A stretch of DNA of 50,387 nucleotides. Source: an uncultured Selenomonadaceae bacterium (GTDB lineage: Bacteria > Bacillota > Negativicutes > Selenomonadales > Selenomonadaceae). The number at the start of each line of letters is the position of its first letter. Positions within the stretch are counted from its first letter, which is position 1. Location: positions 5,298-55,684 of the forward strand of contig CAJOHI010000012.1 in the NCBI GenBank assembly GCA_905234365.1, in the 5' to 3' direction. Made by a program: the position numbers and the translations under genes. The notes under the pieces were generated by a model. The model worked only from the letters and a program-made list of their open reading frames with translations. It searched no databases and was not told the origin of the DNA. Below are positions 3,633 to 50,387 of this stretch, one piece after another.

Positions 3633-5467
3633 AATTTTGTAGTAAATCGTCGATTTCTTTTTCGCTGCGGCGTTTCACAATAAATTTTCCAAGCCTCACG
3701 ATAACAGGATTCGATCTCCTTCATATATTGACAGCTGTCCATTAATGAAGATTTTAATAAGTGTTCACGCAGACCGGCATGGTAGCCTGCGATTAATTCT
3801 TTGCGCCTACCAAGTTGGACTGCTTTTTTTACGTATTCCATAGGGTTTTGTGCAATTAGTTCGTTAAGATCGGCATTAGTCAGAATACTTGCGCCGAATC
3901 TTGATCCGTGACTTTTTCCGCGAAATGTCACGACCGGTACACCCATATATAAAGCCTCGCAAGTCGTCAAACCACCGTTATAGGGAAATGTATCCAATGC
4001 AACATCAATGTCGCGGTATTGTTCCAAATAATCAGGACTGTAAGGACGAAGTTCGATTCTGTCAAGAGGAAAACTCATCTTGCCAAGTCTTTCAAGGACA
4101 ATTTCACGACCGGAAGGTATACTGCAAATTTTATTTTTAATGACTAAAATCGAATCCGGCACTTGCTCTAAAATGGCACGCCAAAGGTAAAGTGTTTCTT
4201 CGGTGACTTTTGCAAAATTGTTGAAACTGCCATAAGTTACATAATCATTTTGCAGCATTGGCGCTTTAATTCCGGCGGCAGGCATGAGGCGGACAGTACC
4301 AGGTGCATAACATAAGTGACAGTGCTTAGTTCGTAAAATTTTTTCGGTGAATCCGGCTGGCTGTTCTTTCTCAGGAAGACAAACCATGTCGGAAAGAAAA
4401 AAATCTATAGCATTAAGACCGGTTGTAGCCGTGTAACCGATTGCAGAAATTTGCACAGGTGCCGGCTTATAAGCCATAATAGTCAGACAACTGTTTTGGC
4501 TGTGACCGGATAAATCAATTAATATATCAACATGGTCTTCGTAAATCAATCTTGCTGCCGTCCTTGCCGCTCTGCCGCTCAAATCTCGCCAAGATACATG
4601 ATGACGCTTTAATCTGTCCGTCACGGCATCAGTTTTACCGGTCTGATAGCAGGTTACTGAAAAATTTTCCGCGTCGAAGTCTCTTAAAAATGGCAGAATG
4701 AAATTTGCAACGGCATGTTGTCGAAAATCCGGCGAAATATAACCAATTTTGAGTTTTTTTTCAAGCACACGCTTATTTTTATCGTGATTATAAGGTGTCA
4801 AATCTGCAAAAAATGACTGATATTTAATCGCCAAATCCTTGCTAAAAGCCGGTGCCAGATCGCGATAATTTCTCAAAAATAAATGCTTTCCATATAATTC
4901 TGCCGCACGTTCATTATTATCAGTCAACTCACTTGCCTCAAGAAGTGCTTCGGCTGCCGTTTCCGGTTCACCTGCCAAATATAAGCCGTTTGACGACCAA
5001 CTGAGTGCCTTGTAAAGCAAGTTCTGCATTAATGAAATTTTCGTTTCAGTTTCGTTTTGAAATTTTAAATCTTCTGCGGTCTTTTCACGTCGATTGAATA
5101 CAAATTTTCGCTGATAATTTTTTAATAATCTGTCAAGATTTTCAATCGTATTTTTTGCCTCTTTGATGACGCCTCTGAAAATTTTTAATTCTTCCTTTAG
5201 ATCAAATTTTTCTGCGGCGACGGCACCGAGTATTAATCGTCCGCGCAAATGGTTAGGCTCTAAATCAAGTGCATTTCTTGTCAAAGTTTCTGCTTCGTCG
5301 AGCTTTCCAAGATATAGCGCCGCTTCTGCCATAATTGCTACGCCGTCCGCTTTGCTCTTATCAAGCTCAAAAATTTCTCTGGCGCAAGCTCTCATCGCTC
5401 GTGGATCGCCATCGGTCGCAAATTTATCCGCTAACATCAACCAGTTTAATCTCTCATTCATTGCCAT
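3629..5467 (-). CDS. TPR / O-GlcNAc transferase (SPINDLY-like) protein
   Basis: A 612-residue protein. Residues ~1-100 contain TPR-like helical repeats ('AALYLGKLDEAETLTRNALD'). The rest matches the bacterial OGT C-terminal catalytic region: 'KIGYISPDFRQHAV', 'DILIDLSGHSQ', 'PAPVQISAIGY', 'YVTYGSFNN', 'RIELRPYSPDYL', 'DTFPYNGGLTTCEAL' and 'MGVPVVTFRGKSHGSR'. These are the nucleotide-sugar binding and catalytic motifs of GT41 enzymes, which glycosylate Ser/Thr on proteins. In bacteria they often act on flagellin or surface proteins; the substrate here is unknown. It is transcribed alone, and a terminator at 5562-5595 separates it from folB. Confidence 0.9.
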   Translation of the reverse strand: MAMNERLNWLMLADKFATDGDPRAMRACAREIFELDKSKADGVAIMAEAALYLGKLDEAETLTRNALDLEPNHLRGRLILGAVAAEKFDLKEELKIFRGVIKEAKNTIENLDRLLKNYQRKFVFNRREKTAEDLKFQNETETKISLMQNLLYKALSWSSNGLYLAGEPETAAEALLEASELTDNNERAAELYGKHLFLRNYRDLAPAFSKDLAIKYQSFFADLTPYNHDKNKRVLEKKLKIGYISPDFRQHAVANFILPFLRDFDAENFSVTCYQTGKTDAVTDRLKRHHVSWRDLSGRAARTAARLIYEDHVDILIDLSGHSQNSCLTIMAYKPAPVQISAIGYTATTGLNAIDFFLSDMVCLPEKEQPAGFTEKILRTKHCHLCYAPGTVRLMPAAGIKAPMLQNDYVTYGSFNNFAKVTEETLYLWRAILEQVPDSILVIKNKICSIPSGREIVLERLGKMSFPLDRIELRPYSPDYLEQYRDIDVALDTFPYNGGLTTCEALYMGVPVVTFRGKSHGSRFGASILTNADLNELIAQNPMEYVKKAVQLGRRKELIAGYHAGLREHLLKSSLMDSCQYMKEIESCYREAWKIYCETPQRKRNRRFTTKF

Positions 5468-9282: not shown

Positions 9283-9502
9283 GACATACTCCCCACAGCT
9301 AAAGCTGGGGGATTCTGCTATCATCGACATTCGCCTTAAAAATAAGGTCTTACGATGTCTCCTGCAATGGTCGATGCCGGCGGCTTTTACCCCTGCTCAT
9401 CTTCAAGCGTATTTTAGCAAAAGAATTTACAAAATGCAATAAAAACTTAGCGCCTTACATCCCCATAGCTAAAGCTAGGGGCTTTTCGGCGCATTTCGGT
9501 AA
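9283..9502. mobile_element. IS200/IS605-type miniature element (no transposase)
   Basis: A 220-base element lies between the HAD gene and prs. One end has GACATACTCCCC followed by a CCCCACAGCT/AGCTGGGG hairpin. The other has a CCCC-TAGCT/AGCTA-GGGG hairpin and ends GGCGCATTTCGGTAA. Both are typical IS605-family subterminal palindromes, but only about 100 bases separate them and no intact ORF is present. It is best read as an internally deleted, PATE/MITE-like derivative, perhaps with remnants of a tnpB 3' end or omega-RNA region. The 9405-9502 half is repeated at 1-98. This accounts for the gene-free stretch 9180-9521. Confidence 0.7.
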
Positions 9503-38686: not shown

Positions 38687-38773
38687 TGGTGCCGAAGATC
38701 GGACTTGAACCGATACGTTGTTGCCAACGGCAGATTTTGAGTCTGCTGCGTCTGCCAATTCCGCCACTTCGGC
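38687..38773 (-). tRNA. tRNA-Leu (anticodon CAA)
   Basis: On the minus strand the acceptor arms GCCGAAG/CTTCGGC pair fully, with A as discriminator and an encoded CCA. The anticodon stem GCAGA/TCTGC carries the loop CTCAAAA, i.e. anticodon CAA, reading UUG. A long variable arm (CGTTG-GCAA-CAACG) marks it as class II, and the T-arm GGTTCAAGTCC is present. The surrounding 38535-38915 otherwise contains only its terminator and the leader of the next gene. Confidence 0.97.
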
Positions 38774-38915: not shown

Positions 38916-39812
38916 ATGAGCGAGTTAAGTAACCCGAGCAAGACGGAGACGATCTCCATACTTAAGAGTTTGTTTTTGGAAATGTGTTCATCGCGACGGC
39001 AACTGAAGCCAATTTTAAGCGAAATACTTCGGGCGATTGATAATAACATGTTTGTTGACGCGGATTCTGACGAGGTTAAGGAGCTGCTTGAGGAGATTTT
39101 GGAAATGCAAGAGGCGCTGTCTAAGGTTGACGAGTTGCAAGCGGCATTCAAAACTAAAAAGATTGCGGCAGTTGACGACGCCATTAAGGATATGGAGCGC
39201 CGGCACGTAGTTAGCGAACTCAAAAGCATATTATCAAGATTCAAGAACCTCGTATGCGATTCTGACGACGAGAACGAGATCGACGCGGTTAAGAAACTCA
39301 AACGTCAAGCGCAAAAGCTCTCACTTAAAGCCGAAAAGATAAGCGCGGAGAACTTTGCCGAAGAAGGTGCAAAATTCGTTGACGTTGCTGAAAAGATTGT
39401 GGACACTAAGCCTTTATCATCGACGGCATTTTTGGAAATTCAAAACAGCTTTCCCGATAACTTGCTGATTGCATTCACTATCATGAAGAAGTCATTGCAC
39501 TTTGAAGGCGAAGTTTTAAAAGTTGCAGAAAGTAAAGTTGAGACGCTGCAAGAAATGGAGCAGAAGAAACTTGAGGCACTAAGAGCAATAGTCGACGACC
39601 TCAAAATTACCGTTGCAAGGTCCTTCGTCGACGAAGACGATATCACCATTGAGGCTAAGAACGTCAAGAAGCGCCTTTCGGTGAAGTCATTAAATAATAA
39701 GTTGCACGAATTTGTTGACGGCAGCGAGTCGCTCTCGTTTCCGGTGCTGAGTACTTTTTGTCAACGGACCCAACTTTTGCCGCCGATCAAGAGGACAAGG
39801 TGCATTCGCTGA
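38916..39812 (+). CDS. Helical protein, probably the N-terminal part of the giant ATPase (frame break)
   Basis: The ATG at 38916 has GAGGAG 9 bases upstream and starts MSELSNPSKTET. The 298 residues are almost entirely charged helix with coiled-coil character ('MQEALSKVDELQAAF', 'KLKRQAQKLSLKAEKISA'). No known motif. From about 39758 the frame no longer reads like protein (Cys/Arg-rich tail ending RTRCIR), while the -1 frame opens into the 1,500-residue ATPase with similar codon use. The two frames overlap by 55 bases around a T5 run. I read this as one gene broken by a frameshift (real, programmed or a sequencing error), though two overlapping genes remain possible. Confidence 0.7.
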   Translation: MSELSNPSKTETISILKSLFLEMCSSRRQLKPILSEILRAIDNNMFVDADSDEVKELLEEILEMQEALSKVDELQAAFKTKKIAAVDDAIKDMERRHVVSELKSILSRFKNLVCDSDDENEIDAVKKLKRQAQKLSLKAEKISAENFAEEGAKFVDVAEKIVDTKPLSSTAFLEIQNSFPDNLLIAFTIMKKSLHFEGEVLKVAESKVETLQEMEQKKLEALRAIVDDLKITVARSFVDEDDITIEAKNVKKRLSVKSLNNKLHEFVDGSESLSFPVLSTFCQRTQLLPPIKRTRCIR

Positions 39813-42800
39813 TCCCGGTCATTGTTGACAAGCTGTTTCAGTGGAGCATTGTCGATAAGGTCTATTGGAAGGGCATTCAATTTTACTATCTCACGGATAA
39901 CGGCAAGGAAATGTTGTCGCGCATACTTTCAATCAAGGACACTAGCAAGATTAATCAAAATGAGTCAGTCAAGAAGCGCCTTTCGGGATATCTGCGTCGC
40001 TTTATCCTGTTTTCGGTGATTTGGTCTTTGAAGATCAAGAAGAACACCACCAAAATTGACGGCGACGATAACCGCTTTTGGTTGCGTGCGGTGGCCAGAG
40101 TGCCGAATGGACCGTCGCATACATTTTTTGTGGTGTCGCTGATTTTCTTTGACAACGATTGGGTAAAAAATCTTGACAACTTCATCACGACTTACAAGGA
40201 CGAGGTGAGTAGCGGCAGGGTTATCAAGGGCGTATTTTTGATTAGCAACTTTGATTCGCAGCTGCTCCAATCTTGGATTGCGTTTTTTAAGACCGTTGGC
40301 GTCACCAATATTTACAGGTTCATGACGGCGGTGCAGGGCGGCAGTAAGTTATTCGACGAAAAAGGCAACGAGATCAACCTGCTTGAATGGTGCAACGAAG
40401 TCGGATTCGGCAAAGTTAGTCGTAATGAATCGACGTACGCGACTGACGAAGTTGAGATTCAAACTTACAGCGTAAACGACGACGACTCCGAAGAAATTGA
40501 GACCGTCAGCGAGACGAACGAGATTGACGAGACGGAATTTGACAGTGACGATGAGGTTGCCGACTTCGACGACTCTGACGACTCCGACAACTTCAACGAA
40601 GACGAATTTAACATTGTTAAGGACTCAACTCCAACTATGAGATTTAAAAAGGATAAGGACGTACCTTTGGGCAAGGGCATGAAGGCACCCGACAAGGCAC
40701 TTGGTCAAAGGTATATTGATATCGTCAGCAAGCAGTTGAAGGCATTGCCCAGCGACGAGGATAGAATGGTTCAAGGCATACTCTTTACCGCGACGAGGTT
40801 CTTTGTCGAAGGAAATTCAAGTCGCGCAATGATGTGGCTGCACATGCTTGCAACTCAGCAGTTGAGCAAGAACGAAGATTGGGCAATGAACCTTGCAGTT
40901 GAGATTGGCTACATTCTTGATGACCCGATGATAGTCAATCAACCACAAATGCGTAATATTGATCCCTTTGACTTTTGGGACAGCTACTTTGCGATTCCGA
41001 AAGTCAATGTAAGCGAACTTCATGATCACCTTAACTTGGCGGCACTTATTAAAGCCTTTTTTGCACCGCCGGAACCTATGAGCTTTCAGATCAAAAGTCG
41101 CTGGAACCAAATTAACGACGACCGCTCAAATATTGCATTGAAAACTTATCCGTCAACTAAAAAACTCATCAACCTTTTCAAGAACTTTGCGGAGCAAACT
41201 CACTGCTCGTTTGCCTCGTGCATTAGCGTTGACCATTCGACTGTTGAAATTGAACTCAAAAATGCACTCGAACTTATCAAAACCATGCACGAGAGAGCCG
41301 ACGCGATCATCAAAATCCCGATTAAACACCCGCGAACTAAGGGTCTTGTAAAAAAACTTTACGACACTGACGGCGAGATTCGGAAACTGCTTAACGTTGA
41401 AACTTCGCGTACACTCTTTACTTACTGCAGCCAGTTTACCGATGTGAATTTTGACCGAATTGAAAACCAAGTTGCTGTCACGAGCGAAGACATATTTTCC
41501 GAGATCAAGGTTGGCAATTACCTTGACGAAATTTGGAGCAGCATTAAGGTTGACTCTCACAAGAACGAAAAGTTTACAGGTGTTGAGCGCAACAAGCAAA
41601 TACGCCTGTTCATTCAAGCGCTTACGGCGCTGATTGCCTATGCCTTTGCAAAAAAGCATGCCGATACGCTCAAAAGTTCCGGTCATCAAAAGGCACCTAT
41701 CGCCAAGGCACTTGAACTTCTCAACGATATTGTCGACGAGTTTAGCCAAGTCGATCAAAAGATCACGATCAATCTTATCGGTCCGGCGATCTTTATCGTC
41801 TTTATCGAAAACCTTGCGGTGCAAATGACTAGCAAGGAGCGGCCGCTGTTCTATCGCGAATGTCTTTTGGGTTCCAAATACTTTGAACTCACAACTGACG
41901 GCATACCTTTTAAAAATTCCTATCGGGTTGCCTCGTTTAGACTTGCAAATCACGTGATTGAATTTAATAAAGCTATGGAAAACTTGACCGTAAAGGAAGC
42001 GGCCAACGTTGCCTACGAAACTGCCGTTAGAAGTTGCGACTTGGGTGTACTAAAACTGCTAGAAGCTAACTATCGCGAATATATTGACCGCTCTGATGAG
42101 GAGTTGAAGCGCCGTCAAGATAACGTTACTAAGTTGGTGGATCGTCAACTTGACAGAATTTATCACGAGTTTCTAGACAACCTTGAACTTGATCGCAACT
42201 ACGATCGAATCACTAACCAGGATAAAATTGACTTCTACGTCATGGTTGCAACCGCCGCGAAGGAGCATTACAGCCAAACTAAAAACGCCGGTATCTTCCA
42301 GCGCTTTGTCAATGCTTGCAAAAATGATATCCTCTTGGCGGCTCAACCTCACAAAAACGCCCTTGAACAGCGACTCAACACCTTGAAGGAAAAACTTGAA
42401 TCCGAACTTTCCACCGACGAGGACCTCGACACGAAATATCCTATCCTTGCCGAGATTCACCGCCAACTTACACTTGGTAACCTCACCGTTGCCGAAGATT
42501 ACCTAAACCGCTGGAATGATAACAACGCTCAACTTAACATCAACTTTACCGAAAGTCAGAACGAGGCGTTTGAGGACTTTTTGGACAACTACGAGTTCAT
42601 TTTCACCACTTGCATTAGCAACAAGAGCGACTCGCTTGAAAAAATCTATTCCAGAATGCGCAGCGGTAATGCCAAGAACCGTTCCGAGAGAGACGCCACA
42701 AGTTTTGTCAACGCCTGGCAAGGACTTAACACTGACCTTAAAGCCCGCGCTGAGGCTTCGGTTGTCGAATTGATCAATCATCTTTCCTTTGACACTGCGA

Positions 42801-44344
42801 CAGTTGACAAGTCCGAGAAGGTGCCGCCAAATCAGTGGAACTTTCAACTTAGCTTTCCAAATTACAAGAGGTCCAAAGCCGCCTATCCCCATTGCTTTGC
42901 GGTTTATGGCACCGAGATTGCCTCAAAGGGACTTGCCGTCATCTACCTTGCAAGTAACCGCACCGCTGATAACATTGTTGAGACGCTCTCAAAGACGATT
43001 AAGCCGGATTGCGGCATCATTTGTCTGGTTGACTGTGCTCTAAGTCTTGCTCAACGCCGTAAGATCGCTCAAGCTTTCAAACTTAGACCGGACCTCAAAA
43101 ATATCGTCGTGATTGATCGGGTTATGGCGATCTTTTTGACTCGTTTTGAAGACAGCGTTCGCGGCGTTAAGTTCCTCAACGCCGCTCTGCCGTTTGCCCG
43201 CGTGCAACCTTACACAACTGGCGGCGTCGTTGCTCCGGAGATGTTTATTGGGCGTTCGAAGGAATTGGCTAAAATCCAGGATATGGCAGGTCCCGTATTT
43301 GTCTACGGCGGCCGTCAACTCGGCAAATCCGCGCTCCTTCGCCAAGTCAGAAACATCGTCAACGATCCGCAAAGCTCTAATTTCGCCTTCTTTATCGATC
43401 TCAAAGGTCTCGACAGCGATAAATCACTTGATAAGATCGTTCGCGAGCTTAAGGATTCCAAACTCATCGACGAGGGCGAAGTTGTCGGCAGTTGGGACGA
43501 TTTTTCGCTGACGATTCGTAACCTTATGAAGTCCGAAGTTGCAGCGCCTAAGAAACTCATGCTGCTCCTTGACGAGAGTGATGAATTTTTGGCCTCCGTT
43601 GAGACCTCTGCAAACCGCGCCATTGACGTGTTGCGTGAACTTCGCGAGACCTTTGCCGGTTCATTTAAGTTCGTTTTGGCCGGACTTCACAAGGTCATTC
43701 GCTTTGAAAAAAATTCCTCTTTTGGCAACCTTGACCACATCTCAATTTTGCCCTTTACTCCAACCGACGCTCTTGAACTGCTGCTTAAACCTATGAGCTG
43801 CTTGGGTTTCACGATTGAGGACGAAAGTTTGATGTCGGCTATCTTCTCTAGGGCCAACTATTATCCGGGTCTTATTCAGTATTATTGCAAGATGATTGTT
43901 GACGCCGCTGCTGATAACTATGCTCAGCGCAATTTTGACGCCACTAAGAATCCGCCTTATAAACTTGATGATCAGTACCTTAAAAATATGTTGGGCAAGC
44001 GCGATTTTCAAGAGGAGATCAACAAGAAGTTTCAGATTACTCTCAAGCTTGATGATGACAATTTTTATGAGGTCATTGCTCTTGTCATTGCTCTTGCTTA
44101 TTACGAGTCCAATCGACCCGTTCATGTCAGCCTTGATAAGATTCGCGAGACTTGCTTGCTCTACGATATTGATAAGATTGCACAGATGAGTAATTCGCAG
44201 CTGGAGTCGTTGCTCGGTGAAATGGTTGAGCTTAATTTGTTGCGCAAGGTTGATGATATGTATGAGTTTAATCGTTATGCCTTTTGGCACATGTTGGGCA
44301 ATGAAGATGAGGTCAGCTCCCGCTTGGCTTCTATTTTGGATTAA
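39758..44344 (+). CDS. Giant STAND-like P-loop ATPase (about 1,500 residues)
   Basis: The open frame begins at a TTG at 39758. If it is separately translated, the GTG at 39800 (AGAGGA 4-5 bases upstream) is an alternative start. Apparent order: winged-helix-like segment (~15-75), mixed alpha/beta region (~85-190), highly acidic Asp/Glu linker (~228-285), a long helical region (~300-1090), and a Rossmann-like segment just before the ATPase. The NTPase (~1150-1450) has Walker A 'GGRQLGKSA' at ~1184, Walker B 'LMLLLDESDEF' at ~1272 and a sensor-like 'FKFVLAGLHKV', followed by a C-terminal winged helix. 'GGRQLGKSALLR' and 'MFIGRSKEL' recall STAND/archaeal-type ATPases, many of which are immune or signalling switches. 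Function unknown. Codons are more G/C-ending than in the left half of the window. Confidence 0.8.
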   Translation: MSTDPTFAADQEDKVHSLIPVIVDKLFQWSIVDKVYWKGIQFYYLTDNGKEMLSRILSIKDTSKINQNESVKKRLSGYLRRFILFSVIWSLKIKKNTTKIDGDDNRFWLRAVARVPNGPSHTFFVVSLIFFDNDWVKNLDNFITTYKDEVSSGRVIKGVFLISNFDSQLLQSWIAFFKTVGVTNIYRFMTAVQGGSKLFDEKGNEINLLEWCNEVGFGKVSRNESTYATDEVEIQTYSVNDDDSEEIETVSETNEIDETEFDSDDEVADFDDSDDSDNFNEDEFNIVKDSTPTMRFKKDKDVPLGKGMKAPDKALGQRYIDIVSKQLKALPSDEDRMVQGILFTATRFFVEGNSSRAMMWLHMLATQQLSKNEDWAMNLAVEIGYILDDPMIVNQPQMRNIDPFDFWDSYFAIPKVNVSELHDHLNLAALIKAFFAPPEPMSFQIKSRWNQINDDRSNIALKTYPSTKKLINLFKNFAEQTHCSFASCISVDHSTVEIELKNALELIKTMHERADAIIKIPIKHPRTKGLVKKLYDTDGEIRKLLNVETSRTLFTYCSQFTDVNFDRIENQVAVTSEDIFSEIKVGNYLDEIWSSIKVDSHKNEKFTGVERNKQIRLFIQALTALIAYAFAKKHADTLKSSGHQKAPIAKALELLNDIVDEFSQVDQKITINLIGPAIFIVFIENLAVQMTSKERPLFYRECLLGSKYFELTTDGIPFKNSYRVASFRLANHVIEFNKAMENLTVKEAANVAYETAVRSCDLGVLKLLEANYREYIDRSDEELKRRQDNVTKLVDRQLDRIYHEFLDNLELDRNYDRITNQDKIDFYVMVATAAKEHYSQTKNAGIFQRFVNACKNDILLAAQPHKNALEQRLNTLKEKLESELSTDEDLDTKYPILAEIHRQLTLGNLTVAEDYLNRWNDNNAQLNINFTESQNEAFEDFLDNYEFIFTTCISNKSDSLEKIYSRMRSGNAKNRSERDATSFVNAWQGLNTDLKARAEASVVELINHLSFDTATVDKSEKVPPNQWNFQLSFPNYKRSKAAYPHCFAVYGTEIASKGLAVIYLASNRTADNIVETLSKTIKPDCGIICLVDCALSLAQRRKIAQAFKLRPDLKNIVVIDRVMAIFLTRFEDSVRGVKFLNAALPFARVQPYTTGGVVAPEMFIGRSKELAKIQDMAGPVFVYGGRQLGKSALLRQVRNIVNDPQSSNFAFFIDLKGLDSDKSLDKIVRELKDSKLIDEGEVVGSWDDFSLTIRNLMKSEVAAPKKLMLLLDESDEFLASVETSANRAIDVLRELRETFAGSFKFVLAGLHKVIRFEKNSSFGNLDHISILPFTPTDALELLLKPMSCLGFTIEDESLMSAIFSRANYYPGLIQYYCKMIVDAAADNYAQRNFDATKNPPYKLDDQYLKNMLGKRDFQEEINKKFQITLKLDDDNFYEVIALVIALAYYESNRPVHVSLDKIRETCLLYDIDKIAQMSNSQLESLLGEMVELNLLRKVDDMYEFNRYAFWHMLGNEDEVSSRLASILD

Positions 44345-44352
44345 TTATTACT

Positions 44353-44424
44353 AACTTTCTTTGAGTGAGCAAAGAAAGTTACAAAGAAACTCACATACTT
44401 TTGTAAAAGTATGCAAAACAAGTG
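44353..44424. repeat. Dispersed twin-hairpin element, copy A
   Basis: Two adjacent stems: AACTTTCTTTG / CAAAGAAAGTT (loop AGTGAG) and CATACTTTT / AAAAGTATG, joined by ACAAAGAAACTCA and followed by CAAAACAAGTG. The same element recurs at 46600 and 48335. It lies 8 bases after the giant ATPase stop. No T run follows, so it is not a classical terminator. Confidence 0.85.
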
Positions 44425-46556: not shown

Positions 46557-46671
46557 AACTTTCTTTGCCTGAGTTAGCCTTATTATTATTATTATTACTA
46601 ACTTTCTTTGAGTGAGCAAAGAAAGTTACAAAGAAACTCACACACTTTTGTAAAAGTGTGCAAAACAGGTG
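46557..46671. repeat. Dispersed twin-hairpin element, copy B, with a truncated copy
   Basis: A full copy spans 46600-46671: AACTTTCTTTG / CAAAGAAAGTT and then CACACTTTT / AAAAGTGTG. Compared with copies A and C the second stem has T-to-C and the paired A-to-G, so base pairing is kept. A partial first arm lies at 46557-46567, followed by an ATT trinucleotide run to about 46598. The remaining gap to 46761 shows no supportable gene. Confidence 0.85.
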
Positions 46672-46761: not shown

Positions 46762-47526
46762 TTAGATTTCGATAAAATAGTGGTTGCAGATGTCCACCAG
46801 TTCTTCCACAATCAACGAGTGGAATGCTGCAAATGATAGGTTTTCCGTTAGTGCCGCAAATGTGTATTGCCCTACCGCCCATGCCGCTACGTTGCTCTTG
46901 TCGCTCACTCGCGCCATGTATATCCTCGTTCCGCTTGATAAATCTATCTTCCACTTTACCCCATATACCCCGCTTATGTCCTTCAGCTCCTCGCCAACTT
47001 GCCGTTTATATGTCCGCACTGCCAGCGTCACCGTCGGTTCCCAGCGTCTGCCGTATCGTATCTCGACGATGTTCTCATTTATCACCGCGATATAGTTCAC
47101 TGCGTACCCGCTCTTTCGCGGTATGTATAGAGGTATGTAACCCACTTTGCGTGCCGCTTCCTCAAAATTCGAGTACATAACTATCGGACTTGGCAGGCCT
47201 ACGCTCTCTTTGAGCTCCGCTTCGATTGGCGGCCTTGTCACCTCAACTTCCGGCGTTACCTCAACTTCCGGCGTTACCTCAACTTCCGGCGTTACCTCAA
47301 CTTCCGGCGTTACCTCAACTTCCGGCGTTACTTCAACTTCCGGCGTTACCTCATCTTCCGGTTTCTCTACCTCAAACGTTTCTATCTCGTCCCTTACCGT
47401 CACGTTCGCTTCGTCTATCCTCCGCTGTTGTGCCGCCATGATCGACAATTCCTCGTCTCCTCGCGCCGCTTCTGCACTCGTCGTCACCAACGCCGCTATC
47501 AGCGCTCCTATCAATATCTTCCTCAT
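46762..47526 (-). CDS. Secreted protein with (TPEVEV)6 repeat and DUF4367-like C-domain
   Basis: A 254-residue protein with a clear signal peptide (MRKILIGALIAALVTT, cleavage near AEA). Residues ~50-95 are six copies of the hexapeptide Thr-Pro-Glu-Val-Glu-Val encoded by an 18-bp tandem repeat, a rigid acidic stalk. The C-terminal ~150 residues resemble DUF4367-type domains ('GYIPLYIPRKSGYAVNYIAV', 'VVEIRYGRR'-like strands, 'WAVGQYTFAALTENLS'), which occur in exported or anti-sigma-factor-associated proteins; this match is from memory of the pattern. It starts 9 bases after the ABC ATPase gene, so the two are co-transcribed. Its coding strand is very purine-rich. Confidence 0.7.
   Translation of the reverse strand: MRKILIGALIAALVTTSAEAARGDEELSIMAAQQRRIDEANVTVRDEIETFEVEKPEDEVTPEVEVTPEVEVTPEVEVTPEVEVTPEVEVTPEVEVTRPPIEAELKESVGLPSPIVMYSNFEEAARKVGYIPLYIPRKSGYAVNYIAVINENIVEIRYGRRWEPTVTLAVRTYKRQVGEELKDISGVYGVKWKIDLSSGTRIYMARVSDKSNVAAWAVGQYTFAALTENLSFAAFHSLIVEELVDICNHYFIEI
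47243..47350 (-). repeat. 18-bp tandem repeat, six units
   Basis: Six consecutive copies of an 18-bp unit (TCAACTTCCGGCGTTACC on the plus strand), one carrying a single C-to-T change, encode (TPEVEV)6. Copy number could vary without a frameshift because the unit is 6 codons. Confidence 0.95.
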
Positions 47527-47535
47527 CCTTCAACC

Positions 47536-48234
47536 TCATATTATCGTCCCGAACTTTTCCTTCATCTTTTCATTACTTAGCACTTCTGCCGCCCTTCCCG
47601 CCGCTAGCACCCCCTTATCCAATAGTATCACTTGGTCCGCGTGCCTCAATACCTGCTCCAGATCATGCGAGATCATTATTATCGCCATGTCTTCCCTCCT
47701 CTTTAGCTCCTCCAGTATCTCATAAAATAGCTCCAGCCCGTTTCGATCTACCCCTGAGACCGGTTCGTCCAATAATAATAAGTCTGGCTTTGGCTCCAGC
47801 GCTAACGCTATTAGCACTCGCTGCAATTCCCCACCACTTAACGCCCCTAGCCGCCTCTCTATCAAGTGCTCCGCTTGCACTCGCCTTAATTTCCTCTCTA
47901 TTTCCTCTCGCTCCCTCTTTGTCGTTTTTAGCCACACTGGCTTTTCCCTCTTGCACGCCATAAATATGTCTATTACACTTATCGGCGCCGTTACGTCAAA
48001 CGTCAGGTATTGCGGTACGTACCCTATTACTGGCTTTCCACTTCCCTCATAGCCTATCCTCCCACTATGTTTCACTTCCCCTATCAGCGCCTTCATTAAC
48101 GTGCTTTTGCCCCCACCATTGGGCCCTATTATCGCCGTTATCTCCCCTCTTTGTACCTGCATGTTTACTCCTTCAAATATTACTAACTCTCCTACCTTCA
48201 CCCCAAAATCCTCTATCTCATATCCCTTTCCCAT
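47536..48234 (-). CDS. ABC transporter ATP-binding protein, metal-type
   Basis: The ATG at 48234 has AAAGGTG upstream; the frame extends 27 bases further. The 232-residue NBD has Walker A 'GPNGGGKST', Q-loop 'YVPQ', signature 'LSGGELQRV', Walker B 'LLLLDEPVSGVD' and H-loop 'ISHDLEQV'. 'YVPQYLTFD' and the overall pattern resemble ZnuC/MntB-type manganese/zinc importers. No permease or binding protein is in the window; the gene downstream encodes a secreted repeat protein instead. Arg, Gly and Glu codons are mostly purine-ending, unlike the left half of the window. Confidence 0.88.
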   Translation of the reverse strand: MGKGYEIEDFGVKVGELVIFEGVNMQVQRGEITAIIGPNGGGKSTLMKALIGEVKHSGRIGYEGSGKPVIGYVPQYLTFDVTAPISVIDIFMACKREKPVWLKTTKREREEIERKLRRVQAEHLIERRLGALSGGELQRVLIALALEPKPDLLLLDEPVSGVDRNGLELFYEILEELKRREDMAIIMISHDLEQVLRHADQVILLDKGVLAAGRAAEVLSNEKMKEKFGTII

Positions 48235-48259
48235 TTTATCACCTTTTCCCACTCTCGTC

Positions 48260-48334
48260 AACTTTCTTCCCTTAAAATTAAATTAACTTTCTTCCCTTAA
48301 AATTAAATTAACTTTCTTCCCTTAAAATTAAATT
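48260..48334. repeat. Three perfect 25-bp tandem repeats
   Basis: Three identical 25-base units (beginning AACTTTCTTCCC and ending TTAAATT) run directly into twin-hairpin copy C, whose first arm starts with the same AACTTTCTT. The array may have arisen by slippage of the element's edge. It lies upstream of the ABC ATPase gene. Confidence 0.92.
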
Positions 48335-48403
48335 AACTTTCTTTGACTGACCAAAGAAAGTTACAAAGAAACTCACATACTTTTGTAAAAGTATGCAAAA
48401 CAA
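48335..48403. repeat. Dispersed twin-hairpin element, copy C
   Basis: AACTTTCTTTG / CAAAGAAAGTT with loop ACTGAC (AGTGAG in copies A and B), then CATACTTTT / AAAAGTATG and CAAAACAA. Stems are perfectly kept while the first loop differs. It lies between two minus-strand genes. Confidence 0.85.
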
Positions 48404-48480
48404 CTTCAGCTTTTTTTCCCCTTTTTCCTCCTAAACTTTTATTTCCCTTCCCCTCTTGACTTTTCCTCTTTCTCGTGTTA

Positions 48481-49338
48481 TTATCTCTTTATACCTATTC
48501 TTACTATTTCACTCACTTCTCTTATCCGCTCTGCTATCCTCTCCCCGTTCGCCCCGTATCGCCCGCTTATCTCCCTTATACTTAGGTTGCTCGTTATTAT
48601 CGTTCGTAACCCCTCTCGCACCCGGTAATCTATTATCATATATATCTGCTCCCCATTATACTCGCTCTCTCGCTCACTGCCAAGATCGTCTAATATCAAC
48701 GTCTTTACTTCCCGTACCGCTCGCATTGCCTCCTCGTACCCTTCCGCATTATACCGCAATTTTATCATCAACTCCCCTACCGTTGTAAATAATACCCCCT
48801 CCCCTCGCTTTATCAGCTCGTTCCCTATCAAACTCGCTAACATCGTCTTGCCTACTCGCCGCTCCTCACTATATATATATATTGAACCCAGCTTTAGCCC
48901 TTTCGCTACCGCTTCCATGTTCCCTTCGTGCACCTCGTAGTCTTCAAACCCCTTCTTACTATACACCCCAGGTATCTTGCTCTGCAGCAGCCGTCGCTCC
49001 GTTCGCTCCTCTTGTTGCCTTTGCTTCAAATATCTACATCTCTTTACCCCAAAGTACAGCACTCTTACCCCGTTCACCTCGTACGTTGACGCCATTTGCT
49101 CATACCCTGTCCCGCTCTCATCATATTGACACGCTTCCAATCCCTCGCAGCTCTCACATTTCCCTTTCCGCTGCCGTATCCCCTCTAACTTTATCGCTTC
49201 TATTTTACTAACGTACAGCCCGTATGCGCTGCTATACGTCTTTTGTAGCCCCATTACGTAGCTTGTCGAATATGTGTTGATATTCTCTCGGCACTTCTGC
49301 AAGTATCCCTCCAATTTTATTACCTCTGAGATCAACAT
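48481..49338 (-). CDS. DnaI-type helicase loader (AAA+ ATPase)
   Basis: Start taken at the ATG at 49338 (GGGGAGG just upstream), giving 285 residues; the frame extends 42 bases further. The N-terminal part holds a DnaI-like Cys pattern 'CESCEGLEAC...C' (residues ~61-100), a likely zinc site. The AAA+ domain has a divergent Walker A 'SEERRVGKT' (~157-165), Walker B 'TLILDDLGSE' and sensor I 'TIITSNLS'. DnaI/DnaC proteins load the replicative helicase. The Arg-Arg-Val before GKT replaces the usual small residues. The 5' end overlaps the upstream gene by 107 bases in another frame. It could be the chromosomal loader or belong to an element. Confidence 0.85.
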   Translation of the reverse strand: MLISEVIKLEGYLQKCRENINTYSTSYVMGLQKTYSSAYGLYVSKIEAIKLEGIRQRKGKCESCEGLEACQYDESGTGYEQMASTYEVNGVRVLYFGVKRCRYLKQRQQEERTERRLLQSKIPGVYSKKGFEDYEVHEGNMEAVAKGLKLGSIYIYSEERRVGKTMLASLIGNELIKRGEGVLFTTVGELMIKLRYNAEGYEEAMRAVREVKTLILDDLGSERESEYNGEQIYMIIDYRVREGLRTIITSNLSIREISGRYGANGERIAERIREVSEIVRIGIKR

Positions 49339-49807
49339 GCCCCTCCCCTGCCTTTCTTTTTCCTTGCTTTTTCTTTCCATACGTATTGTGTGCGGTCTTT
49401 ACTGTATTGTCCCTTTCTTGGAAATATGGTTGAGGGGTCTGGGGAGAAGGAAAAGAACCTTCTTTCGCCTCTCGGTCCACTTCCCGGTCCACTTCCCGGT
49501 CCACTGGACTGCCTATTTTATACTCCGGTACTGGCTTTATACTATACGCTTTCGGTTTGCCGCTATACGCTATATACCCCAATGATATCAGCCGTTGCTT
49601 TATCCCTTGCAATGTTTGCTTACTCTTTATATGCGTTATATTCATAAGCTCGCTGTCCGTAATTACAAACGAGTCAGACCAATAGTTCTTGTTCGCTGCG
49701 TCACACAAGACGCGATACACCAACTGAGTTAAAGGATTGAGTCGCTTATCATTCGTGCAGTTCCTTACAAATTGCTGCATTTCCTTAAAATAGCTCTTTC
49801 CATTCAT
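49232..49807 (-). CDS. Winged-helix replication-initiation-type protein
   Basis: The ATG at 49807 overlaps the previous stop as ATGA and has GGAG 8 bases upstream, giving 191 residues. Residues ~20-95 form a winged helix typical of phage/plasmid replisome organisers or DnaD-like N-domains ('LNPLTQLVYRVLCDAANKNY', 'DSELMNITHIKSKQTLQGIK', 'LISLGYIAYSG'). A threefold DREV repeat (12-bp DNA repeat) and a basic, disordered segment follow. The C-terminal ~25 residues are helical ('EVPREYQHIFDKLRNG'). Being next to a DnaI-like gene suggests a primosome pair. The family assignment is by pattern only. Confidence 0.65.
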   Translation of the reverse strand: MNGKSYFKEMQQFVRNCTNDKRLNPLTQLVYRVLCDAANKNYWSDSFVITDSELMNITHIKSKQTLQGIKQRLISLGYIAYSGKPKAYSIKPVPEYKIGSPVDREVDREVDREAKEGSFPSPQTPQPYFQERDNTVKTAHNTYGKKKQGKRKAGEGHVDLRGNKIGGILAEVPREYQHIFDKLRNGATKDV

Positions 49808-50094
49808 GCCTTCGGCTCCCGCCACTCATTTAACATGTGCCAATCATACAAATCATGATCCAGCGCCAGACTATAGTCCACTAGCTCCAAAAAGTCCTCG
49901 TGATAGTACTTCTTTAGCCCCGTTGCCAGCGCAAATAACTTCGCTTCTTCGATCTCGCCGGCATAGAGCAGCTGATTGTAAATCACCTTGCATCGCGCAA
50001 GCTTATTTGATTCGTCGCAATTCCATATATTACGCTCTTTGAGTGACAGGTACCATTCCAACCAATATTTGAGATAGTATGACATTTTATGCAT
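49804..50094 (-). CDS. Small hypothetical protein, 96 residues
   Basis: Not recognised. Aromatic-rich helices (Trp, Tyr), no signal peptide: 'YLKYWLEWYLSLKERNIW', 'CKVIYNQLLYAGEIEEAKLF' and 'EDFLELVDYSLALDHDLYDW'. The first ATG has a GGGGGG run 7 bases upstream, contributed by the conserved leader repeat at its 5' side. Its stop overlaps the start of the winged-helix gene (ATGA), so the two are translationally coupled and probably work together. Confidence 0.65.
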   Translation of the reverse strand: MHKMSYYLKYWLEWYLSLKERNIWNCDESNKLARCKVIYNQLLYAGEIEEAKLFALATGLKKYYHEDFLELVDYSLALDHDLYDWHMLNEWREPKA

Positions 50095-50109
50095 TTTTTT
50101 GCCCCCCGC

Positions 50110-50151
50110 GTTAATTAAGTCACCGCGATACTGACCTCGCGGCTCGGTCTA
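50110..50151 (-). repeat. 42-bp leader repeat, copy 1
   Basis: Identical over 42 bases to 50258-50299. It contains the palindrome CCGCGA-8-TCGCGG. Flanks also match: a GCATTTTTT and C-run on the left, and ATTTTTGAC..TAACGG on the right, so the real unit is about 80 bases. The outer arms CGTTAAT / ATTAACG can pair. On the minus strand it supplies the G-run ribosome site of the 96-residue gene. Confidence 0.9.
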
Positions 50152-50240
50152 CACATTTTTGACATTAACGGCGGTTTCAATTTTTTACACTCGATGTCAC
50201 CTATCAAGCTATTTAAGGCCATAAAGTTGCCTTTCCGCAT
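50115..50240 (-). CDS. Possible 41-residue small ORF between the two leader repeats
   Basis: Reads ATG CGG AAA GGC from 50240 and stops inside leader copy 1. The peptide begins MRKGNFMALNSLIGDIECKK and ends RPSREVSIAVT, the last part being encoded by the repeat itself. A GGGGG run from leader copy 2 lies about 9 bases upstream, as for the 96-residue gene. It could be a small gene or leader peptide; it may also be chance. Confidence 0.35.
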   Translation of the reverse strand: MRKGNFMALNSLIGDIECKKLKPPLMSKMCRPSREVSIAVT

Positions 50241-50257
50241 TTTTTCATACCCCCACC

Positions 50258-50299
50258 GTTAATTAAGTCACCGCGATACTGACCTCGCGGCTCGGTCTA
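50258..50299 (-). repeat. 42-bp leader repeat, copy 2
   Basis: Second exact copy of the 42-bp core. Outer arms CACCGTTA / TAACGGTG (50255-50262 with 50319-50326) pair over 8 bp, differing in sequence from copy 1 but keeping the pairing. The remainder to the window end (50387) contains no gene I can support. Confidence 0.9.
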
Positions 50300-50387
50300 A
50301 CAAACAATTTTTGACGCTAACGGTGCCGATATGGATCACAGAAGTCATTGACGTAATCTGCGATACATTGCGTAATTGGCAGTGCAA

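Follow-up and report, generated by a model that had tools for sequence, protein, structure and literature searches.

A duplicated element, probably a structured RNA, at the gene boundaries of a phage-like cassette in an uncultured Selenomonadaceae bacterium

Introduction

In ColIb/IncI-type RepZ systems, a short reading frame and a pseudoknot control translation ahead of the replication gene. A pseudoknot in the messenger RNA is also the operator through which translation of gene 32 of phage T4 is autogenously repressed; it is approximately 28 nt long and has a 5′ end that overlaps the upstream reading frame segG (PMC535899). Type III antitoxins are repeated H-type pseudoknots beside a small gene, with CptI having two repeats and a 45-nt knot (PMC4627078), and a terminator is among the criteria listed for ToxIN loci (PMC8860590).

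Here we describe a duplicated element that stands between two genes of a phage-like cassette in an uncultured Selenomonadaceae bacterium. The duplication is real, and the element is probably a structured RNA of unassigned type. The window referred to below is the whole stretch of DNA that was analysed, 50,387 nt corresponding to positions 5298–55684 of contig C12, from a 2.3-Mb draft genome of 148 contigs that is 89% complete.

Genes of the element

The genes around the duplicated element all lie on the minus strand. At the end of the window is the 3′ end of a 167-aa gene (50317–50387), cut by the contig end after 22 codons that have 95% identity to P0001, its counterpart on contig C11. It is followed by a 96-aa gene (49804–50094), by a 197-aa gene (49232–49825) whose product matches a phage replication-initiation family (E 4e-9) and by a 299-aa gene (48481–49380) whose product matches DnaC-like helicase loaders (E 4e-43); these last two are the replication genes that the original prediction had placed downstream.

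The two proteins that flank the duplicated element belong to no family that we could find and bear no resemblance to each other. The 96-aa protein of the window has no match in Pfam at E 0.001, or in NCBIfam or PHROGs at E 0.1, the 167-aa protein and the C11 version of the 96-aa protein have none in Pfam up to E 5, and a PADLOC search up to E 1 gave nothing for the 167-aa or the window 96-aa protein. Chance was taken to account for the PHROG matches of the 167-aa protein (E 0.4) and of the C11 96-aa protein (E 0.18), as well as for two lamin matches to the 96-aa protein among solved structures (E 0.5–0.56), where the 167-aa protein has no match. The 96-aa protein is predicted to be mostly helical, at low confidence (mean pLDDT 60.7).

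Past the helicase-loader gene lies a terminator-like hairpin on the minus strand (48334–48363), inside an 81-nt intergenic repeat that is found elsewhere in the genome. This repeat, at 44344–44424, 46591–46671 and 48326–48406 of the window, has two hairpins (AACTTTCTTTG...CAAAGAAAGTT, then CATACTTTTG...), and five matches in its own genome; its core is matched at least 40 times in a single congener (G010), and matches in 7 of 21 genus genomes make it a repeat family of the genus. Several other features of the window were recorded alongside it. Tandem repeats of 18 bp at 47219–47380 lie inside a 254-aa minus-strand ORF and code for repeated PEVEVT, and a pair of 98-nt sequences at 1–98 and 9405–9502 is 96% identical over a distance of 9.4 kb. 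The region 47000–49500 shows a strong strand skew over its minus-strand genes (GC skew to −0.61), unlike 40–46 kb, and a 1528-aa plus-strand ORF at 39758–44344 has a putative ATPase-like part near its end (GGRQLGKSALLR, identified by eye).

The duplicated units and their second locus

Unit 1 (50109–50173) adjoins the 96-aa gene and unit 2 (50255–50325) adjoins the 167-aa gene, both on the minus strand, with an 81-nt spacer (50174–50254) between them that holds the start of a 41-aa ORF (50115–50240). The units have in common a 58-nt block at 91% identity, repeated at a distance of 148 bases, and match again in a shorter block towards their far end (88% over 17 nt); a pair of such length and identity is far beyond chance. 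Each consists of an outer stem, an A-rich GUCAAAAAU that is conserved, and a pseudoknot core, at 50123–50149 in unit 1 and at 50271–50297 in unit 2. Model R1 scores the units at 92.7 and 99 bits respectively, values that are not independent because the model was built from the unit copies themselves. On the minus strand unit 1 leads into CGGGGGGCAAAAAAATG and the 96-aa ORF, and unit 2 into GGTGGGGGTATGAAAAAATG and the 41-aa ORF. Unit 2 is placed across a gene boundary: the 167-aa gene terminates at a TAG (50317–50319) inside the 5′ arm of the unit's outer stem, and the 3′ arm leads into G-rich sequence and an ATG.

When the genome was searched by blastn, the element was located at one further place, the end of contig C11 (locus L004), at 84% DNA identity over query positions 30–308. 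This second locus holds the whole 167-aa gene, two units and a 96-aa gene with 94% identity to the window version. The four copies, from two loci of one genome, could be aligned over 71 columns, and the 3′ outer arm TTAATTAACG is identical in all of them. The 96-aa gene of C11 passes directly into the final codons of trpS: it resembles the window version as far as roughly codon 94 of 96, beyond which its two remaining codons and its stop overlap the 3′ end of trpS. The C-terminus of this trpS product is DYC, while congeners have DYF and a further one to four residues (the 3′ end was readable in five of nine congeners); the C11 trpS (L004 2520–3531) is split between two frames, with its 3′ end directly against the element's 96-aa gene. 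Because C11 keeps the 167-aa gene, the units and the 96-aa gene before running into the end of trpS, the module common to both loci is the 167-aa gene, a unit, a spacer, a second unit and the 96-aa gene, and the initiator and DnaC-like genes, which stand downstream of the cassette in the window copy only, are outside it as judged from these two copies.

The only minus-strand promoter site near the units in the window is a weak one in the spacer (50207–50180), and none could be placed upstream of the 167-aa gene in the window or in C11, where the sole minus-strand site near this gene overlaps its start codon (4606–4577).

The second locus bears on much of what had been predicted from the window. 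The unit duplicated 148 bases apart was found as described and has a like pair at C11, the CCGCGA/TCGCGG stem and outer arms are present as stated, and in the window each unit does lead into a predicted ribosome site and start codon. As a rule, a ribosome site directly after each unit does not extend to C11, where 62 nt, compared with 14 nt in the window, lie between unit 1 and the 96-aa start codon. Nor does the 41-aa ORF look like a gene: the short frame of the C11 spacer has 29 aa from an ATG (32 from a GTG), the frames of the two loci cross unit 1 in different reading frames, and mainly a short GNFMAL stretch is common to them. The longer array suggested beyond the window finds no echo at C11, which extends 535 nt past its own unit 2 and has two units only; the final base of the window is itself the final base of contig C12, whose terminal 55 bases are identical to C11, an identity that probably explains why the assembly stopped there.

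Pairing and conservation

On the minus strand the core follows the order GACC, GAG, CCGCGA, GGTC, AGTA, TCGCGG, which is that of an H-type pseudoknot, with GACC/GGTC crossing the central CCGCGA/TCGCGG in an arrangement peculiar to pseudoknots. An outer stem, CCGTTA/TAACGG, encloses the knot in each unit, a further GTC/GAC stem is present, and the A-rich stretch beside the knot is mostly unpaired in the structure used. The knot loops are 3 and 4 nt on this strand, lengths that fit an H-type knot, and it was by gene direction and loop lengths that the strand for the structure was chosen. H-type pairing is possible in all four copies as far as their sequences go, and in the most diverged, unit 2 of C11, the knot stem is GTCC/GGAC, a compensatory change, with a fifth pair gained.

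When 22 pairs were scored over the four sequences, 96.4% of 83 cells could pair, with one pair changed on both sides, compared with 28–51% for structures slid by one to three columns. A column shuffle test was not significant (136 of 500 shuffles scored as high), as is expected with only four sequences. Between the two loci unit 2 has seven substitutions, which break no pair, change one on both sides (A-U to U-A) and add one. In 200,000 trials with seven random substitutions in the 67 columns of unit 2, no pair was broken in 1.2%, and the absence of a broken pair together with at least one two-sided change arose in 0.34%, a figure that gives support and no proof since the structure was chosen after the sequences had been seen. 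Folding energies, in which the knot is uncounted, are not clearly lower than those of shuffled sequences on the minus strand (z −0.92, −1.63, −0.22 and −0.04) and are somewhat better on the plus strand (z −1.10, −2.84, −2.18 and −0.22).

The original prediction had seen covariation in the outer arms, and had named further copies and covariation as its test. Further copies exist at C11 and one compensatory change was found, in the knot stem; these come from a single genome and from an alignment that the shuffle test does not single out. The outer helix itself has no pair changed on both sides across the four copies, its 3′ arm being invariant, and the apparent covariation arises because the 5′ arm and flanks differ and the units pair over different lengths.

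Comparison of the loci shows how strongly each part of the module is kept. Unit 1 is identical at 64 of 65 positions and unit 2 at 60 of 67 aligned positions, against 57 of 73 in the spacer, where 16 columns are gaps. The 96-aa gene matches at 273 of its 291 bases, with differences in 12 of its first 93 codons, four of which alter the residue; the leader ahead of its start has a 48-nt gap between the loci. On these counts unit 2 is kept better than the spacer and no better than the 96-aa gene. The seven changes of unit 2 fall in five codons of the frame that continues past the 167-aa stop and alter the residue every time, which argues that the unit is not kept as protein.

Search for relatives

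Searches of genomes, phages, plasmids, viral contigs and Rfam families gave no convincing relative of the units. A blastn search with 308 bases against 99 genomes, including the source genome, gave no other genome at E below 0.008 among the matches listed, of which the others were at most 49 nt long. The units had no match in phages and plasmids, and two DNA patterns of the unit had none in viral contigs (0 and 0). A unit pattern had two matches in genome contigs (Pseudooceanicola and a Rhodocyclales MAG), by our estimate about what chance would give for 19 fixed bases in 257 Gb; against model R1 the pattern alone fits in both (20–24 of 69 positions).

Model R1 itself, run on 66 genomes of the genus, found the source genome and five weak matches (E 0.006–0.064 per genome, with about four expected by chance), four of which lie within long coding frames and one of which is mostly intergenic; these were not accepted. 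Only the source genome was found among 380 genomes of the class, and two were found in a sample of 398 from the phylum, the source and one match at E 0.0014 that was rejected, being within a 492-aa frame and having several model pairs broken. These genome-wide runs used stricter filters, with which weak matches may be lost. Rfam models gave only a CRISPR-repeat match outside the units over 49500–50387 at E up to 10 (E 8.6), and at gathering scores only a tRNA at 38690–38773 in the window and L004. Other known elements were considered and set aside: an integron attC site has its arms in another order, stop-codon readthrough would need a frame past the stop that is not kept, no intrinsic terminator was called at the units, and known ribozymes have no Rfam match there.

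In 99 genomes the 96-aa protein was found in two, the source and a 30% match (E 8.8e-4) inside a 729-aa frame, and a two-row profile of it found one of 380 genomes, again the source; it had no match in viral contigs, genome contigs, phages or plasmids. The 167-aa protein was found in one of 60 genomes (the source) and not in viral contigs, phages or plasmids, and the 299-aa and 197-aa proteins were not found in viral contigs. The single-protein contig scans reach only close relatives, and the contig collections may omit records very near the genome of the window. Within this scope the element is an orphan so far, present in one genome only, and its absence from the 65 congeners scanned with model R1 (drafts) fits a recently acquired mobile element.

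Proposed function and alternatives

The element is supported by four copies and one compensatory change, and its role is most likely cis-acting. More specifically, we give about an even chance to each unit being an intercistronic cis-acting RNA that controls translation in a mobile cassette. Of the cis-acting RNA leader originally predicted before a replication operon, the RNA between operon genes thus remains the best reading, while the tie to replication was lost with C11, which keeps the cassette and runs into trpS.

The unit would be an RNA of approximately 65–70 nt within a minus-strand transcript of the mobile, phage-like element, with an H-type pseudoknot inside an outer stem, sited where two reading frames meet. 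Its likely action would be control of translation re-initiation, because the outer stem of unit 2 has the 167-aa stop on one side and a G-rich stretch and start codon on the other. The folded unit may mask or space the next ribosome site and so hinder the next start, and a ribosome arriving from upstream and ending at the 167-aa stop would open the outer stem; alternatively, a cassette product, possibly the 96-aa protein, might bind the pseudoknot and keep the unit closed. The sequences themselves show the units, how far they are kept, their potential for pairing and the one compensatory change, while transcription, folding within cells, masking and the ligand are here what we infer. Masking cannot be general, given the 62 nt that separate unit 1 of C11 from the 96-aa ATG and the apparently good ribosome site which that gene has of its own there; a unit acting on ribosome re-initiation or on message decay would still fit that locus.

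Replication origins often contain paired repeats with inverted arms, and the element encodes an initiator and a helicase loader. The units could be DNA sites, either part of an origin or a protein binding or recombination site, with the inverted repeats acting as double- or single-stranded DNA, and folding of the plus strand is at least as good as that of the minus. We consider this possible but unlikely. The C11 copy is without replication genes downstream of its 96-aa gene, the start-to-start spacing of 148 nt in the window and 143 nt at C11 implies no fixed helical phase, and GACC/GGTC and CCGCGA/TCGCGG, being crossed, do not form a simple DNA palindrome. A separate iteron-like array is also present, within the initiator gene and outside the units, where 2.8 copies of a 12-bp repeat form candidate iterons (49473–49505). 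Repeats were found in 10 of 14 scanned loci of dnaC-like relatives, and of the eight checked further six have an 11/12-bp array within a reading frame that lies close to the dnaC-like gene and is initiator-like by eye (L043, L045, L046, L047, L050 and L051; like the array of the window, candidate origins), and two have longer repeats that are coding. These arrays make it more likely that the origin lies within the initiator gene, an arrangement known from lambda, and less likely that the units are the origin.

The likeness of the predicted fold to type III antitoxins, which are H-type pseudoknots repeated beside a small gene (PMC4627078), and the mostly unpaired A-rich stretch beside the knot would both suit a trans-acting RNA cut from the transcript, in which repeated pseudoknots hold a protein of the cassette. 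Such an RNA seems quite improbable here: the repeats are not head to tail and have approximately 80 nt between them, at neither locus was a minus-strand terminator-like site called between the units and the 96-aa gene, Pfam and PADLOC give no match to the 167-aa and 96-aa proteins at the thresholds used (E 5 or 0.001 and E 1, respectively), the model of the 96-aa protein is helical, at low confidence, and no Rfam family matches over the units. It is rather unlikely, in turn, that the units have no function and are a recent duplication in a decaying element with pairing left by chance. The restriction to a single genome, the C11 junction of the 96-aa gene with trpS, which looks like a broken end, the outcome of the shuffle test and the conservation of unit 2, no better than that of the 96-aa gene, would all be expected of such a remnant; the better conservation of both units than of the spacer, and substitutions that avoid breaking pairs, would not.

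Returning to translation control by a cis-acting RNA, confirmation of the pairing would establish an RNA family without an Rfam match, a pseudoknot at stop/start boundaries of a mobile operon and present twice per message. The locus would then offer a compact natural setting in which to ask how re-initiation is gated by a knotted RNA, and would mark a cassette of two uncharacterised proteins as a functional unit. Should the pairing fail to be confirmed, what is left is an ordinary sequence duplication in one genome. A bolder suggestion, which we consider a long shot, is that the 167-aa and 96-aa proteins and the pair of knotted RNAs form a new two-gene, two-RNA system of RNA and protein (an antitoxin, decoy or protein-bound switch) that would move as a single module between phage-like elements, independently of the adjoining replication genes.

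Comparison with known systems

Compared with the ColIb/IncI-type RepZ arrangement, the knot proposed here is local and duplicated, and at C11 no replication gene follows the 96-aa gene. The RNAs of type III toxin–antitoxin systems (ToxI, CptI) share with the units, as these are predicted to fold, the repetition of H-type pseudoknots by a small gene (PMC8860590, PMC4627078). Type III repeats run head to tail upstream of the toxin gene, whereas some 80 nt, including a short frame, separate the units; here no terminator-like site was called before the gene, and the Pfam and PADLOC searches gave no toxin of the ToxN, CptN or TenpN family. The T4 gene 32 operator, with which the units were compared in sequence by Rfam scan only, resembles their predicted fold in being a pseudoknot that precedes a gene in the setting of phage replication (PMC535899), and the knot of the units may likewise be a point of contact for a regulator. 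In the available sections of that source, the T4 operator is a single copy whose bound protein is a single-stranded-DNA-binding protein and for which no enclosing stem is described, whereas the units are two in number and each is enclosed by an outer stem.
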